From Pedobacter polaris (lineage in GTDB: Bacteria; Bacteroidota; Bacteroidia; Sphingobacteriales; Sphingobacteriaceae), in the NCBI RefSeq assembly GCF_005116505.1, contig NZ_SWBR01000002.1, positions 558,314 to 622,313 on the forward strand: a stretch of 64,000 bases of DNA, given 5' to 3'. Below, one piece after another: positions 52,751 to 56,321 of the stretch (positions are counted from its first letter, which is position 1; the number at the start of each line of letters is the position of its first letter). A model generated the notes under the pieces. That model was not told where the DNA came from. It was given only the letters and a program-made list of their open reading frames with translations, and did not search any database. The translations under genes and the position numbers were made by a program.

Positions 52751-54643
52751 TTAATTCTTTACTACAAAAGTATTGTCACTCCTATCCTTATCTGGAACAT
52801 GGCTGCTGCCCAATACAACTTTATTCAATTTTTTGGTAGTGGGGAATCTGCTTACCACTTCTTTGTTTCCATTTTTCCAAGCTATTATACTTAAGTGACT
52901 TTTTTCAGTTGTTCCGTCATCATAAGTCAAGGTTAAATCAACTGGCAAGGGTTTATTGCTCTTATTTTGTACAATAACTGAATAACCTGTTTGGGTTTTA
53001 ATTACATCTGTTATCGCCAGATCCGTTACTCCCTCCTCAAAAAACCAAGGTTTCCAAAACCAATCTAGATTTTCTCCAGCTCCAGTATTCATGCTGTAAA
53101 AGAAATCATACGGCATTGGGTGTTTGCCATTCCAGTTTTTAATATAATGATGTAAGGCTTTGGTAAATAATTCATCTCCTAAATAGTCTTTTATAAAAAG
53201 ATAGCCAAAACCAGGTTTAGGATAGGAATTGATAAATGAGCCAACCCCTTTTAATTCTGTTGTTAAAGTTACAATTGGAGAATCGTCTTTATTACCCGAA
53301 GAATTACCGGTTTGTAATACTCCATAATCATCTACAATTGTACTATCTATCATGGGCGAAATTAGCCACTCACCTATTGTAGCCCAGCCCTCGTCCATCC
53401 AACCGTATTTTGTTTCATTTATCCCCATATAAAACGGGAACATGGTATGAAAAATCTCATGATCAGTTAAGGTAATTGCATCAAAAGTGTTGCTAGTTGG
53501 ATTGTCATTAACCATCATTGGATATTCCATCTGATCTAAACCATCAAAAACTGTAATGTGATTATATGGAAAAGGCCATTTTGGAAAATTATAACTCATT
53601 GCATAAACTGTCTTCCGAGCAAAGTTTATAACTTCATAATAGTCTTTATGTTTTGCATTAAATACGGCATCTACCCTAGTCCTTCTTTTAGTAATAGGAT
53701 CTACCACCAAACTATTCGATTTCCATAGGTAGTGGTTACTGGTTGCAAAAGCAAAATCAACTACATTTTTAGCATCGAATTTAAAAGTGTTGAATGGTTT
53801 TTGCACTGTTATTTTATTACTTGCTAAATCGGCACTATCAATTACATTGATAGTCACATCACTTTTTTCTGCTTGTTGGAGCTTTTTATAAACCTCTTTA
53901 TTAAATACTTCCGCACCATTTACCAAATCTCCAGTTGCCCAAACTCCAAAATTTTTGGGTACGGTAATAGTTACGTGAAAATTACAAAAATCATTGTAAA
54001 ACTCTTCTGCACCACTGTAAGGTATTCTATTCCAACCATCTACATCATCATAAACAGCAATTCTGGGAAAGAAATAGGCTATAAAATGTGCACCTTCGTC
54101 TACCTGACCAGTTCTTTGATGAGAACCCTTATTTAACGTGTAACTGTACTCAATTTTAAAATTAATAGTTTTACCAGGTGACAAGGCCGGAATTTTGGTA
54201 TGCATATTAGTTCCGTCGATTACTAAACTTGAGGTATCTTTAAGCTGATTATTTAGTAAAACACTTGTGATTTTAACACCTTCACCTAAATCACGTTCAT
54301 TGAACTTAGATTTTCTAGGAACTCCCTTTTTATAAAGGTTTGGATATAACTTAAACCAAATTTCTTCTAAAACATCTGGGCTATTATTGGTGTATTGAAT
54401 TTCTACCGTTCCTTTTAACAATCTAGTTTCAGGATTAAAATCTACTTTGATATTGTAGTTAGCTGTATTTTGCCAATAGTTTTTCCCCGGTGCACCATTA
54501 ATGTCACGAGTTCCTTTTTGGTAAGCTTTTTGAAAAACTGTTTCTACCGGAAGCTGAGCCTTAGCATTGATGGCAGTAGAAAAAGCAAGAACCGCACATG
54601 CAAATAGGTAAACACAGATTTTTTGTTTATTTCTTTTAACCAT
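52751..54643 (-). CDS. Secreted M1-family metallopeptidase
   Basis: A 630-residue exported gluzincin. The signal peptide lies at about 6-29, followed by an N-terminal beta domain (~50-250). The catalytic domain has HEIFH at 395-399 and the third zinc ligand E418 in WMDEGWA, giving HExxH-x18-E as in M1 aminopeptidases. GLDQMEYPMMVN lies where the GxMEN substrate motif sits. The C-terminal part is a short beta domain (VIVQNKSNKPLPVDLTLTYDDG). A periplasmic aminopeptidase role in peptide scavenging is expected. It is a single gene; a 28-base repeat lies 29 bases before its start. Confidence 0.92.
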   Translation of the reverse strand: MVKRNKQKICVYLFACAVLAFSTAINAKAQLPVETVFQKAYQKGTRDINGAPGKNYWQNTANYNIKVDFNPETRLLKGTVEIQYTNNSPDVLEEIWFKLYPNLYKKGVPRKSKFNERDLGEGVKITSVLLNNQLKDTSSLVIDGTNMHTKIPALSPGKTINFKIEYSYTLNKGSHQRTGQVDEGAHFIAYFFPRIAVYDDVDGWNRIPYSGAEEFYNDFCNFHVTITVPKNFGVWATGDLVNGAEVFNKEVYKKLQQAEKSDVTINVIDSADLASNKITVQKPFNTFKFDAKNVVDFAFATSNHYLWKSNSLVVDPITKRRTRVDAVFNAKHKDYYEVINFARKTVYAMSYNFPKWPFPYNHITVFDGLDQMEYPMMVNDNPTSNTFDAITLTDHEIFHTMFPFYMGINETKYGWMDEGWATIGEWLISPMIDSTIVDDYGVLQTGNSSGNKDDSPIVTLTTELKGVGSFINSYPKPGFGYLFIKDYLGDELFTKALHHYIKNWNGKHPMPYDFFYSMNTGAGENLDWFWKPWFFEEGVTDLAITDVIKTQTGYSVIVQNKSNKPLPVDLTLTYDDGTTEKSHLSIIAWKNGNKEVVSRFPTTKKLNKVVLGSSHVPDKDRSDNTFVVKN

Positions 54644-54672: not shown

Positions 54673-54700
54673 ACCACAGATTACACAGATAAACACAGAT
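54673..54700. repeat. Left inverted repeat flanking the GxxExxY gene
   Basis: A 28-base block starts ACCACAGAT and ends AACACAGAT with a third ACACAGAT in the middle. It matches the complement of 55150-55177 at 23 of 28 positions; both 9-base ends are identical. Confidence 0.75.
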
Positions 54701-54711
54701 GTTTTGCTTAA

Positions 54712-55083
54712 CTAATAACCATTTAACATTCTTTTAATTTCAACTCGGGGTTTTCCAAAGTTTATGAGTAAACCGCATTGCTTGTTGCAAGCTACTAGGT
54801 AATTCATTAATTGTGCTTGATGTATTTCTGTTAGCTCTTTTACTGCTTTTAGTTCTACTACAACCTTGTTTTCAACCATTAAATCTGCAAAATATTCACC
54901 TACAACCTCACCATGATATAGTACTTGTAAAGGTTGCTGTTTCATAACTAATAAATTGCATCTCACAATTTCTATAAACAATGCATTTTCATATACCTTT
55001 TCTAGAAAACCTGAACCTAGCGTATTGGAAACTGCATAGGCAGAACCAATAATTTTTTCTGTTATAGCATTAATTTCTTCCAT
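54712..55083 (-). CDS. GxxExxY-family protein (PD-(D/E)XK-like)
   Basis: A 123-residue protein with the name-giving motif G25-F-L-E28-K-V-Y31 and a PD-(D/E)XK-type core: D67 in FADLMV and E77-L-K79 in VVVELKAV, with a following Gln/His helix (EIHQAQLMNYLVA). These residues are those expected of a nuclease-fold metal site, but no activity is established for the family. It lies alone inside a ~505-base unit bounded by 28-base inverted repeats, between an aminopeptidase and an exonuclease gene on the same strand. Confidence 0.9.
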   Translation of the reverse strand: MEEINAITEKIIGSAYAVSNTLGSGFLEKVYENALFIEIVRCNLLVMKQQPLQVLYHGEVVGEYFADLMVENKVVVELKAVKELTEIHQAQLMNYLVACNKQCGLLINFGKPRVEIKRMLNGY

Positions 55084-55149
55084 AAAAAAACAAGTAATTA
55101 TTGCAAACAGATTTTAGAAAACGGAATAAGCACATTCATAGACATTTAT

Positions 55150-55177
55150 ATCTGTGTTCATCCTTTTCATCTGTGGT
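55150..55177. repeat. Right inverted repeat flanking the GxxExxY gene
   Basis: ATCTGTGTT at the left end and ATCTGTGGT at the right end are the exact complements of the ends of the block at 54673-54700. The centre has diverged. Confidence 0.75.
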
Positions 55178-55202: not shown

Positions 55203-56144
55203 TTATTTCCCAAATTTCATTTTTAACTGTTCTAACATATCGTTATTGATAGGTTTTGCAGGCTCTTGAGGTTTAACAGGTCTTGGGCTTTCCGTTTTTG
55301 AAGGTTGAACTTGTTGTTTCGCTTGTTTAGCTTCTTCTTTCTTTTTATTCCAACGTGCCCAAATTTCATCCAGTTTCTTTTTGGTATATAATGGGAAATC
55401 ACCTTGTTTCATCCATGAATAGTAACTTGGTTCAACATCTAGCACAGATTCTACTGTACGGCCTTTGTGTTTACCGAAGTTAATTACCTCTTCTCCGTTT
55501 TCATTATAAACCATTCGGCCTGCAAAATCAACTACCTTATTCATATTGGTAAATTGATGTAAAGCATCAACATCATTTTGAACGGGCTTAGATTTAACTC
55601 CTTTTTTATCTTCGAACTCAGTATCCTGGTATTTGTCAAGTTGAGATAGTAAAACTTCATAAGTTGCTCTAATATCAGCCTCTGCAGAGTGCGCATTGAT
55701 GATATCTTTTTCACAATAAAACCTATATGCAGCCTTTAAGGTACGTTGTTCCATTTGATGGAAAATATTCTGTACATCAACAAATTTTCTATCAGTCATG
55801 TCAAAATCTATCCCAACCCTTAAAAATTCTTCCAATAACATCGGAATATCGAATTTATTAGAATTGTAACCTGCTAAATCAGCGTCACCTATAAATTCTG
55901 CAATCTCTTTAGCTGCATCTTTAAAGGTTTGGGCATCTTTAATGTCTTCATCATAAATACCGTGAATTAGTGAAGTAACCAACGGAATTGGCATCTCAGG
56001 ATTAATTCTTTTAGTCAGAATTAATTCTGTTCCATCTGGCATAGCTTTTAAAATGGCAATTTCAACAATTCTGTCTGAGCCTACATTTATTCCCGTTGCT
56101 TCTAAATCAAAAAAAGCTAAAGGACGTTTTAAATTTAATTTCAT
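55203..56144 (-). CDS. DnaQ-like 3'-5' exonuclease with ExoX-type C-terminal motif
   Basis: A 313-residue exonuclease. The DEDDh motifs are DLE (residues 13-15, FFDLEATG), GYNSNKFDIPML (Exo II) and HSAEADIRAT (Exo III His and Asp). After ~200 comes INFGKHKGRTVESVLDVEPSYYSWMKQGDFP, the compact motif seen at the C-terminus of ExoX-like nucleases (DUF3820 type), then a Lys/Gln/Pro-rich tail. It could trim 3' ends in repair or proofread. The ATG at 56144 is preferred; the frame extends 21 codons up to a TTG at 56207 with a spurious hydrophobic stretch. Confidence 0.88.
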   Translation of the reverse strand: MKLNLKRPLAFFDLEATGINVGSDRIVEIAILKAMPDGTELILTKRINPEMPIPLVTSLIHGIYDEDIKDAQTFKDAAKEIAEFIGDADLAGYNSNKFDIPMLLEEFLRVGIDFDMTDRKFVDVQNIFHQMEQRTLKAAYRFYCEKDIINAHSAEADIRATYEVLLSQLDKYQDTEFEDKKGVKSKPVQNDVDALHQFTNMNKVVDFAGRMVYNENGEEVINFGKHKGRTVESVLDVEPSYYSWMKQGDFPLYTKKKLDEIWARWNKKKEEAKQAKQQVQPSKTESPRPVKPQEPAKPINNDMLEQLKMKFGK

Positions 56145-56321
56145 TTTTATAGATGTGAATATTAGAACTGCTATTAAGATAAAAACATATCTCTTTCTGC
56201 AATTCAAAAATGCTAAAAAGGTTTGGTTAGTTTTGAACTATTTCATTTAAAATTTTAATGCAAATTAATTTCATAATGTTAAACTGTACATTTATCTTGC
56301 CATAAGACAAATAAACTCTAT

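Follow-up and report, generated by a model that had tools for sequence, protein, structure and literature searches.

A single gene between two inverted arrays

Between two protein genes of a Pedobacter polaris contig lies a unit of 505 bp (54673-55177, no strand assigned) that consists of two inverted arms and one gene. What kind of DNA this is, and whether its only gene has a role at its ends, are the questions raised by this locus. All coordinates refer to the window, the whole stretch of 64,000 nucleotides that was analysed. A preliminary description had reported a GxxExxY gene enclosed by 28-bp inverted arms, matching at 23 of 28 positions and identical in their outer 9 and inner 9 bases, and this was confirmed from the sequence. 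Each arm is an array of three CACAGAT-type units in 9-10-bp steps. The arm on the gene's 3' side (54673-54700, plus strand) has three canonical units, ACCACAGAT TACACAGAT AAACACAGAT, with start-to-start steps of 9 and 10. The arm on the gene's 5' side (55150-55177, minus strand) reads ACCACAGAT GAAAAGGATG AACACAGAT, and its middle unit, AAAAGGAT, is degenerate. Block by block, 54673-54700 is ACCACAGAT-TACACAGATA-AACACAGAT and the reverse complement of 55150-55177 is ACCACAGAT-GAAAAGGATG-AACACAGAT.

The arm pair was the longest inverted repeat found by the repeat search (29 nt, 83%, 449 nt apart). Its inverted alignment score was 40 with 450-base flanks, the 99th percentile for 785 same-contig pseudo-genes of other loci being 27.6 with 300-base flanks; besides the flank lengths, the gap penalty differed slightly. 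By itself, the word CACAGAT was no rarity in the window (10 occurrences for 6.0 expected); the significance of the arms rests on their arrangement. The unit lies, as described before, between two same-strand genes, and the open reading frames 52751-54643 and 55203-56207 bear this out. Judging by their translations, they may encode an M1-type peptidase and an exonuclease, respectively. A stray AACACAGAT unit (54611-54619, plus strand) was found in the first codons of the peptidase-like gene. The 24 bases at 54606-54629 are 88% identical to 54687-54710, the inner part of the nearby arm, and the stray unit is possibly the remnant of an arm.

The longest open reading frame between the arms (54712-55083, minus strand) encodes a GxxExxY protein of 123 aa. 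It matched TIGR04256 (E 7.8e-42, 142.3 bits, cut-off 35), its only NCBIfam match at E 0.001, and PF13366 (PDDEXK_3; E 6.3e-40, 136.6 bits, cut-off 22). Among 70 aligned GxxExxY proteins, D67, E77, K79 and E28 were invariant, as were L22, G23, G25, Y31, Y95 and N108, and Q91 was present in at least 90%. The family thus looks catalytically intact, a reading of conserved residues without an activity assay, and nuclease activity is inferred. The structure model, built from the 70 aligned relatives (pLDDT 97.4), has a predicted PD-(D/E)XK nuclease fold of the Cas4/lambda-exonuclease type. The closest solved structures were LHK-Exo, SSO0001 (presumably a Cas4), MGME1 and lambda exonuclease (Foldseek E 1e-4 to 2e-3), and comparison with 4ic1 gave a VIA Z of 9.2 with an rmsd of 4.8 over 101 residues. 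Values of this size could also mean that only the arrangement is shared. Chains of tRNA-splicing and cap-snatching endonucleases were also among the structural matches. A sequence search of the PDB returned nothing with the protein as query and one weak, unconvincing row (E 0.13) with the profile.

Inverted arrays around GxxExxY genes and a second family

The preliminary description also held the impression that such repeats occur near GxxExxY genes elsewhere. The best 80 of 550 candidate GxxExxY loci were taken as a diverse set from many phyla, with bacterial titles from Planctomycetota, Acidobacteria, Verrucomicrobia, Bacteroidetes, Proteobacteria, cyanobacteria, Chloroflexi, Spirochaetota and others, and archaeal titles from Methanosarcinales and Methanoperedens. 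The 300 bases upstream of each gene were aligned with the reverse complement of the 300 bases downstream, for 79 loci (L078 had no flank and was left out). Scores exceeded the 99th percentile of 785 same-contig pseudo-genes in 61 of the 79 loci, and the stricter 99th percentile of 790 mismatched pairs in 48; arms did not stand out in the remaining 18 and 31, respectively. The median score was 42, against 19 for the same-contig and 18 for the mismatched control, and 22 in direct orientation. An inverted alignment score of 28 was reached by 50 of 77 GxxExxY genes but by only 8 of 285 other open reading frames of the same loci; the latter were mechanical frames of 270-750 bases, not curated genes, and three of the 80 loci were dropped for short flanks. 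An initial version of the flank test was useless (0 of 34 above the 99th percentile of mismatched pairs), because orthologous loci, scoring up to 810, were among its mismatched pairs. That control was replaced by the same-contig and open-reading-frame controls.

The arrays themselves were sought with a unit finder, which looks in both flanks for inverted chains of near-identical 7-mers in steps of 8-11 bp. At a score of 32 it recovered 100 of 173 GxxExxY loci and 3 of 226 same-contig controls (two of 175 loci were left out for short flanks). Mismatched pairs of different genes scored fairly high (25 of 173), because unrelated loci have words in common. In the phylum, 101 of 198 sampled genomes had GxxExxY. 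Among the loci of the 30 best-scoring of them, the unit finder, with 7-11-bp steps allowed, was positive for 19 of 30 loci and 3 of 120 controls, and a further association count gave 21 of 30 and 1 of 120. The registered units had the consensus C[A/G]C N [G/A] A [G/T] (316 units, 82 loci). Registration itself favours this form, and A+T-rich words such as ATATAAG and ATTAAG fall outside it. Inverted arrays of about three 7-bp units are the usual frame of GxxExxY genes in bacteria and archaea, and we regard the association as practically certain. The earlier impression held for the inverted arrays; their word is lineage-specific and not always CACAGAT.

The word differs even between GxxExxY paralogues of one genome. 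Seven HMM matches in the window's own genome (G000; 15 contigs, 4.57 Mb) correspond to six GxxExxY loci; one gene is split and another has two stops. By eye, all six have inverted arrays in their flanks, each with a different word: CACAGAT, CGCAAAG/CGCTAAG, CATATAAG, ATTAAG, TTAGGATT and ATCTAAGA. The simple inverted alignment gave 46.5 for L002, 44 for L005 and 37 for L004, next to 40 in the window. It was low for L003 (25), whose arms were better revealed by the unit finder (41), and L006 has weak arms (unit score 30).

Array words and proteins vary together. For 120 loci with a unit score of at least 30 (53 of 173 fell below and were excluded), protein identity correlated with arm similarity, with Spearman coefficients of 0.31 in the diverse set (54 loci) and 0.42 in the genus (66 loci), also when only pairs below 60% identity were considered (0.27 and 0.23, respectively). 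None of 1000 label permutations reached any of the four correlations. The locus with the nearest protein in the other set had arms more alike than the average locus (p 1e-6 and 2e-8). In 30 representatives below 65% identity, whether the unit ends in G or in T was associated with residues 26, 29, 110, 111 and 115 (numbering of the window protein; z 7.8-9.3). These residues may be contacts, or only markers of a deep family split into FLEK/NFG and LLES/NFN types, as read from the alignment; the permutations leave this confounding in place. The co-variation partly reflects the common descent of element and protein. It suggests that GxxExxY recognises its own array, a suggestion supported by co-variation only and by no experiment.

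A second family has the same architecture. TIGR02436, which we take to be the S23 four-helix protein of 23S rRNA intervening sequences (IVSs), comprises proteins that, to our knowledge, are not known nucleases. Inverted iterated arrays, mostly in 7-8-bp steps, frame its genes as well, as revealed by the alignment test (39 of 58 loci and 2 of 232 controls at score 28) and the unit test (42 of 58 and 5 of 232 at score 34); two of 60 loci were too short and were left out. In the 40 loci kept after those without arms were excluded, array and protein again varied together (r 0.28; 0.20 for pairs below 60% identity; reached by 0 of 1000 permutations). TIGR02436 loci with arrays include L277-L306 and L339-L368. 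The family occurred in 153 of the 198 sampled phylum genomes. It was present in 93 of the 101 genomes with GxxExxY (p 4e-7, without kinship correction) and, without GxxExxY, in 60 others.

The genomes also carry Y1_Tnp genes, and the REP-associated tyrosine transposase (RAYT) type was considered as the mover of the arrays. For this, 40 loci from the same genomes (L472-L511) were taken for RAYT-type by open-frame length. Their flanks had palindromic REP-like repeats, inverted in 28 of 40 and direct in 31 of 40 at score 28, and a unit score of at least 32 was reached by 3 of 40, against 9 of 155 mismatched pairs. RAYT was rejected as the mover: it co-occurs, but its flanks are palindromic and without unit arrays. 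REPs and unit arrays are different things in shared hosts. Many different palindromic REP-like classes were seen at the RAYT-type genes, for example GTCGGGATTTGTAATCCCGAC.

Gene-less doublets and empty sites

Gene-less arm pairs, here called solos, were searched for with the exact pattern ACCACAGAT-N(32-62)-ATCTGTGGT, 50-80 bp being the range searched. They were found at 126 places in 20 of 60 genus genomes, with up to 22 per genome, and the backward control pattern gave 0 matches in the same 60 genomes. All 20 solo-bearing genomes were among the 38 with GxxExxY. CACAGAT pairs in genomes without the gene, which would have refuted the preliminary description, were absent from all 22 gene-less genomes of the genus, those examined belonging to one clade. 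A CACAAAG version of the solo occurred in 10 of the 60 genomes, all GxxExxY-bearing, with a backward-pattern count of zero. With genomes treated as independent, Fisher tests of solos in gene-bearing and gene-less genomes gave 8e-6 and 0.006. In a tree built from a single neighbouring protein and covering 30 of the 60 genomes, the 13 gene-less genomes formed one clade (one change, support 98/94), so that the link between solos and gene in the genus is one historical contrast and not 60 independent ones. Class-matched comparisons, which did not include all genes per genome, were weaker: p was 0.11 for CACAGAT genes and CACAGAT solos and 0.02 for CACNAAG genes and CACAAAG solos. Across classes, p was 0.11 for CACNAAG genes and CACAGAT solos and 0.61 for CACAGAT genes and CACAAAG solos.

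The 28 bases of the 54673-54700 arm recur identically in a solo at G000:C8:683072. None of the 54 distinct solos in the sampled loci lay within an open reading frame of at least 120 codons. By a simple rule, 44 of the 54 have one canonical and one degenerate arm, as in the window; eight have one degenerate and one unclassified arm, and two have both degenerate. The gene-bearing copies of the CACAGAT class in the genus share this asymmetry, and in 7 of 8 loci the degenerate arm is the one 5' of the gene; the eighth (L023) has a truncated inner copy and could not be scored. The scorable loci among the more distant members of the CACAGAT class (L057, L087, L113) lacked the asymmetry. The two solos of the window's own genome fold as DNA hairpins, with z-scores of -5.5 and -7.7.

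High solo counts were partly rejected as proof of activity, as many solos ride in an unrelated MITE-like repeat. This repeat of about 130 bp has CAATGTCATTAAGTTAAG ends and a CACAGAT doublet in its middle, and it has multiplied in several genus genomes; by a heuristic count, about 20 of the 54 solos sit inside it. Loci in which it carries a solo as passenger are L173-L212 and L388-L417. No copies without the doublet were recognised among those read. The same two bases, mostly TA, bordered the solo on both sides in 33 of 40 cases; they may belong to the inverted end.

GxxExxY copy number in the genus ranged from 0 to 12 matches per genome, and some genes were broken. At the window site, 23 of 29 relatives were readable (in six, both flanking genes were not found). 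The suggested check for empty sites in relatives was positive: by eye, 21 of the 23 had neither the gene nor CACAGAT arms. In the relative with the most similar flanks (G016), the empty site measures 58 bp, compared with 635. A short CGCTAAG-like array stands in place of the unit in five of the 21 (G001, G004, G011, G031 and G034); these stretches are L140, L143, L146, L148 and L149. Of the other two relatives, G027 has a gene copy and two tandem solos, and G009 a decayed remnant with the right arm. The two near-identical solos of G027 (L141) are repeated together with about 26 bases of flank. In the tree, G027 and G009 lie in another branch than the window's genome, and each side has close neighbours that are empty (G016; G001). 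The site thus underwent gains, losses or both more than once.

A second locus, in genus g67, gave a similar picture. A GxxExxY element is located between two genes in G179, G133, G242 and G107 (87-94% identical). Part of it is deleted in G119, and it is absent from G254, G148 and G144 (68-78% identical), where the two flanking genes almost touch. The only event resolved to the base was found in this genus: G179 cleanly lacks a doublet of TIGR02436 type, 70 bp long, and retains one copy of the TACT that brackets it elsewhere, while the doublet is present in G133, G242 and G119 and diverged in G107. The event is a loss, which either excision or slippage between short repeats could explain. The loci compared were L454, L455, L460, L461 and L462. 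In the search for a target-site duplication, no clean insertion was found among 40 solos, at the window site, in G027, G001 and G004, at the g67 locus, in 20-kb g67 windows or among solo-free MITE copies, and no such duplication is established.

Selfish element, passenger or regulatory site

The anatomy, the private words, an asymmetry common to genes and solos, and sites that are occupied, empty or decayed fit a selfish element that recognises its own ends. As anatomy and distribution, the 'small mobile or selfish unit' of the preliminary description is well supported. The lineage-specific word that co-varies with the protein, the solos and the second family with the same architecture go beyond it. 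Our preferred reading, with a probability of about 0.6, is that the ends are arrays of recognition words and that the sole gene encodes the enzyme recognising them. This figure covers the step that GxxExxY itself acts on the arrays; transposition by the protein is the least certain step. Binding, cleavage, pairing of the ends and transposition are all inferred, as is GxxExxY rather than another factor as the agent. GxxExxY would bind the three units per arm, 8-11 bp apart and about one helical turn, would join the two ends or act on their single-stranded hairpin, and would cut at the outer ends, around TTTA|ACC. The cut element might then be copied or moved into AT-rich intergenic DNA, and solos would be non-autonomous copies mobilised in trans.

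The same observations could be explained by a common factor, encoded elsewhere, that moves the arrays in trans, with GxxExxY and TIGR02436 as passengers or specificity adaptors; a REP-associated HUH transposase (RAYT) is the most obvious candidate. The main reason to consider such a shared mover is that TIGR02436 genes, of a different profile, have arrays of the same architecture. In addition, all three families are found in nearly the same genus genomes. GxxExxY and TIGR02436 were both present in 24 of 40, both absent in 15 and discordant in one; for GxxExxY and Y1_Tnp the numbers were 36, 20 and 4 of 60, the four discordant cases being two genomes without Y1_Tnp that are 82-83% complete and two partial Y1_Tnp matches. 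Because the genomes are not independent, our confidence in the selfish-element reading was lowered and that in a trans factor raised. However, the co-occurrence in the genus traces to one clade split, and by the clade tree the joint absence of the three families is one historical event. The palindromic RAYT-type flanks, with no excess of unit arrays, and the 60 phylum genomes that have TIGR02436 without GxxExxY also speak against a common mover, and arrays would not be expected to co-vary with the enclosed protein if a third protein recognised them. We consider a trans factor unlikely, but it remains a serious possibility. The genus genomes lacking the three families belong, where tested, to one clade, as if this lineage had lost or never gained short interspersed elements altogether.

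The arms could instead act in RNA, as a transcript stem removed by RNase III, with the protein binding its own RNA and the DNA spreading rarely and passively. The 23S rRNA IVSs, which in the accessible part of PMC4990558 have the same anatomy with an S23p open reading frame, a 28-bp stem and RNase III, are the model for this, and both the arrays of TIGR02436 genes and the RNA-cleaving endonuclease chains among the structural matches would suit it. Yet the unit is located between protein genes, the closest solved folds are DNA nucleases, a simple stem needs no iterated units, and no Rfam family matched at E 1, so that we judge this explanation improbable. Still less can be said for the arrays as immobile regulatory sites, with GxxExxY as a host repressor or defence nuclease and the solos as operators. 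Iterated sites at helical spacing do resemble operators, and the solos are intergenic, but the arms usually face each other across the gene with left/right asymmetry in the genus, and the solos have both ends rather than being single operators. Genes that are multi-copy, patchy and sometimes broken, at sites that are empty in relatives, do not fit this explanation either. For a defence role, PADLOC offered only weak similarity to Cas4 (best of five matches at E up to 1, E 0.006). Chance or composition, by which AT-rich intergenic flanks would give spurious inverted matches, might draw on the shortness of the words and on CACAGAT alone not being enriched in the window; it is refuted by the same-contig and open-reading-frame controls and by the zero backward-pattern counts, and can practically be dismissed.

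REPINs, thought to be moved by RAYTs, are the known system closest in manner to the selfish element that we prefer. The accessible part of PMC3116915 describes REP doublets that form hairpins, REP-associated tyrosine transposases, several co-existing classes each near its own gene, and ordered REPIN clusters, comparable to the tandem copies with flank in G027. Intergenic inverted doublets, predicted hairpins and multiple copies (some through hitch-hiking in MITEs) are shared, as is a gene flanked by the repeat of the dispersed doublets, here with an identical 28-bp arm and a common asymmetry. In contrast, the only enzyme of the unit is of the PD-(D/E)XK and not the HUH/Y1 type, its arms are directional arrays of 7-bp units and not single palindromes (REP), and RAYT-type genes with palindromic flanks exist side by side with it in the same genomes. 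Without an HUH enzyme and palindromic REPs, the GxxExxY unit is not a member of the REPIN-RAYT system, despite working like one.

The Coxiella IVS described in PMC4990558, as far as its accessible text goes, is similar in being a unit of about 430-500 bp with one small open reading frame and inverted arms of about 28 bp, sporadically distributed and called selfish. The unit differs in that its gene is GxxExxY and not S23p, that it is not in rRNA, and that GxxExxY arms are iterated and of many classes per genome. With Cas4, lambda exonuclease and RecB, GxxExxY shares the predicted fold, the D-(x)9-E-x-K pattern and a QxxxY-like motif (D67, E77, K79, Q91, Y95), QxxxY marking this group of nucleases; however, it is a minimal domain without the 4Fe-4S and helicase parts that are features of Cas4 and RecB. 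As with MITEs and other IS-derived repeats, short gene-less inverted-repeat elements occur beside gene-bearing relatives, and presence and absence at orthologous sites is one feature expected of insertion sequences and transposons, but the only gene encodes no DDE, serine or tyrosine recombinase. Tn7- and Mu-like transposons have several transposase sites per end, which resembles the several copies of a putative binding site here; the unit lacks their DDE transposase and ATPase, and Tn7's TnsA is a PD-(D/E)XK partner only. Flanking arrays and GxxExxY together suggest an undescribed kind of selfish DNA. More tentatively, and with slightly less than even confidence, we propose that GxxExxY elements form a separate class of prokaryotic selfish DNA, found across bacteria and archaea, in which the enzyme alone acts on its own arrays with private words and solos are served in trans, that the S23-type elements are a second, non-homologous class, and that REPIN-RAYT is one of at least three such inventions. 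The rRNA IVSs perhaps belong with the S23-type (TIGR02436) array class.

In the literature searched, which did not cover most subscription-journal papers, GxxExxY/PF13366 was barely mentioned, and neither six typical array strings nor a report of such arrays was found. In the accessible parts of two papers, GxxExxY denotes a Cas4-like gene next to a reverse transcriptase (PMC8934634), and the name 23S rRNA IVP appears in the legend to a figure of a CRISPR-association screen (PMC10910872). GxxExxY and TIGR02436 are very common families for which no known role was found in the literature searched. The link to its own flanking arrays gives GxxExxY a testable one, would explain the interspersed ACCACAGAT- and ACCACAAAG-type repeats in the genomes searched, and offers many natural pairs of protein and word from which to learn how a 123-residue nuclease recognises its sequence. 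The long-standing question of what purpose the open reading frame in 23S rRNA intervening sequences serves would be raised anew as well.

The window protein had tblastn matches in 0 of 50,697 phage records and 6 of 72,556 plasmid records, and a PHROGs search with GxxExxY gave nothing better than E 0.12. In viral contigs, a peptide-pattern scan found one GxxExxY locus, and the CACAGAT doublet pattern occurred in 23 stretches; judged by eye, several of these stretches resemble chance matches and lack unit arrays. A viral structure library contained two close structural relatives of the GxxExxY model, one of them an annotated PD-(D/E)XK nuclease of Halogranum tailed virus 1 (R4TGU4, E 1.7e-10).
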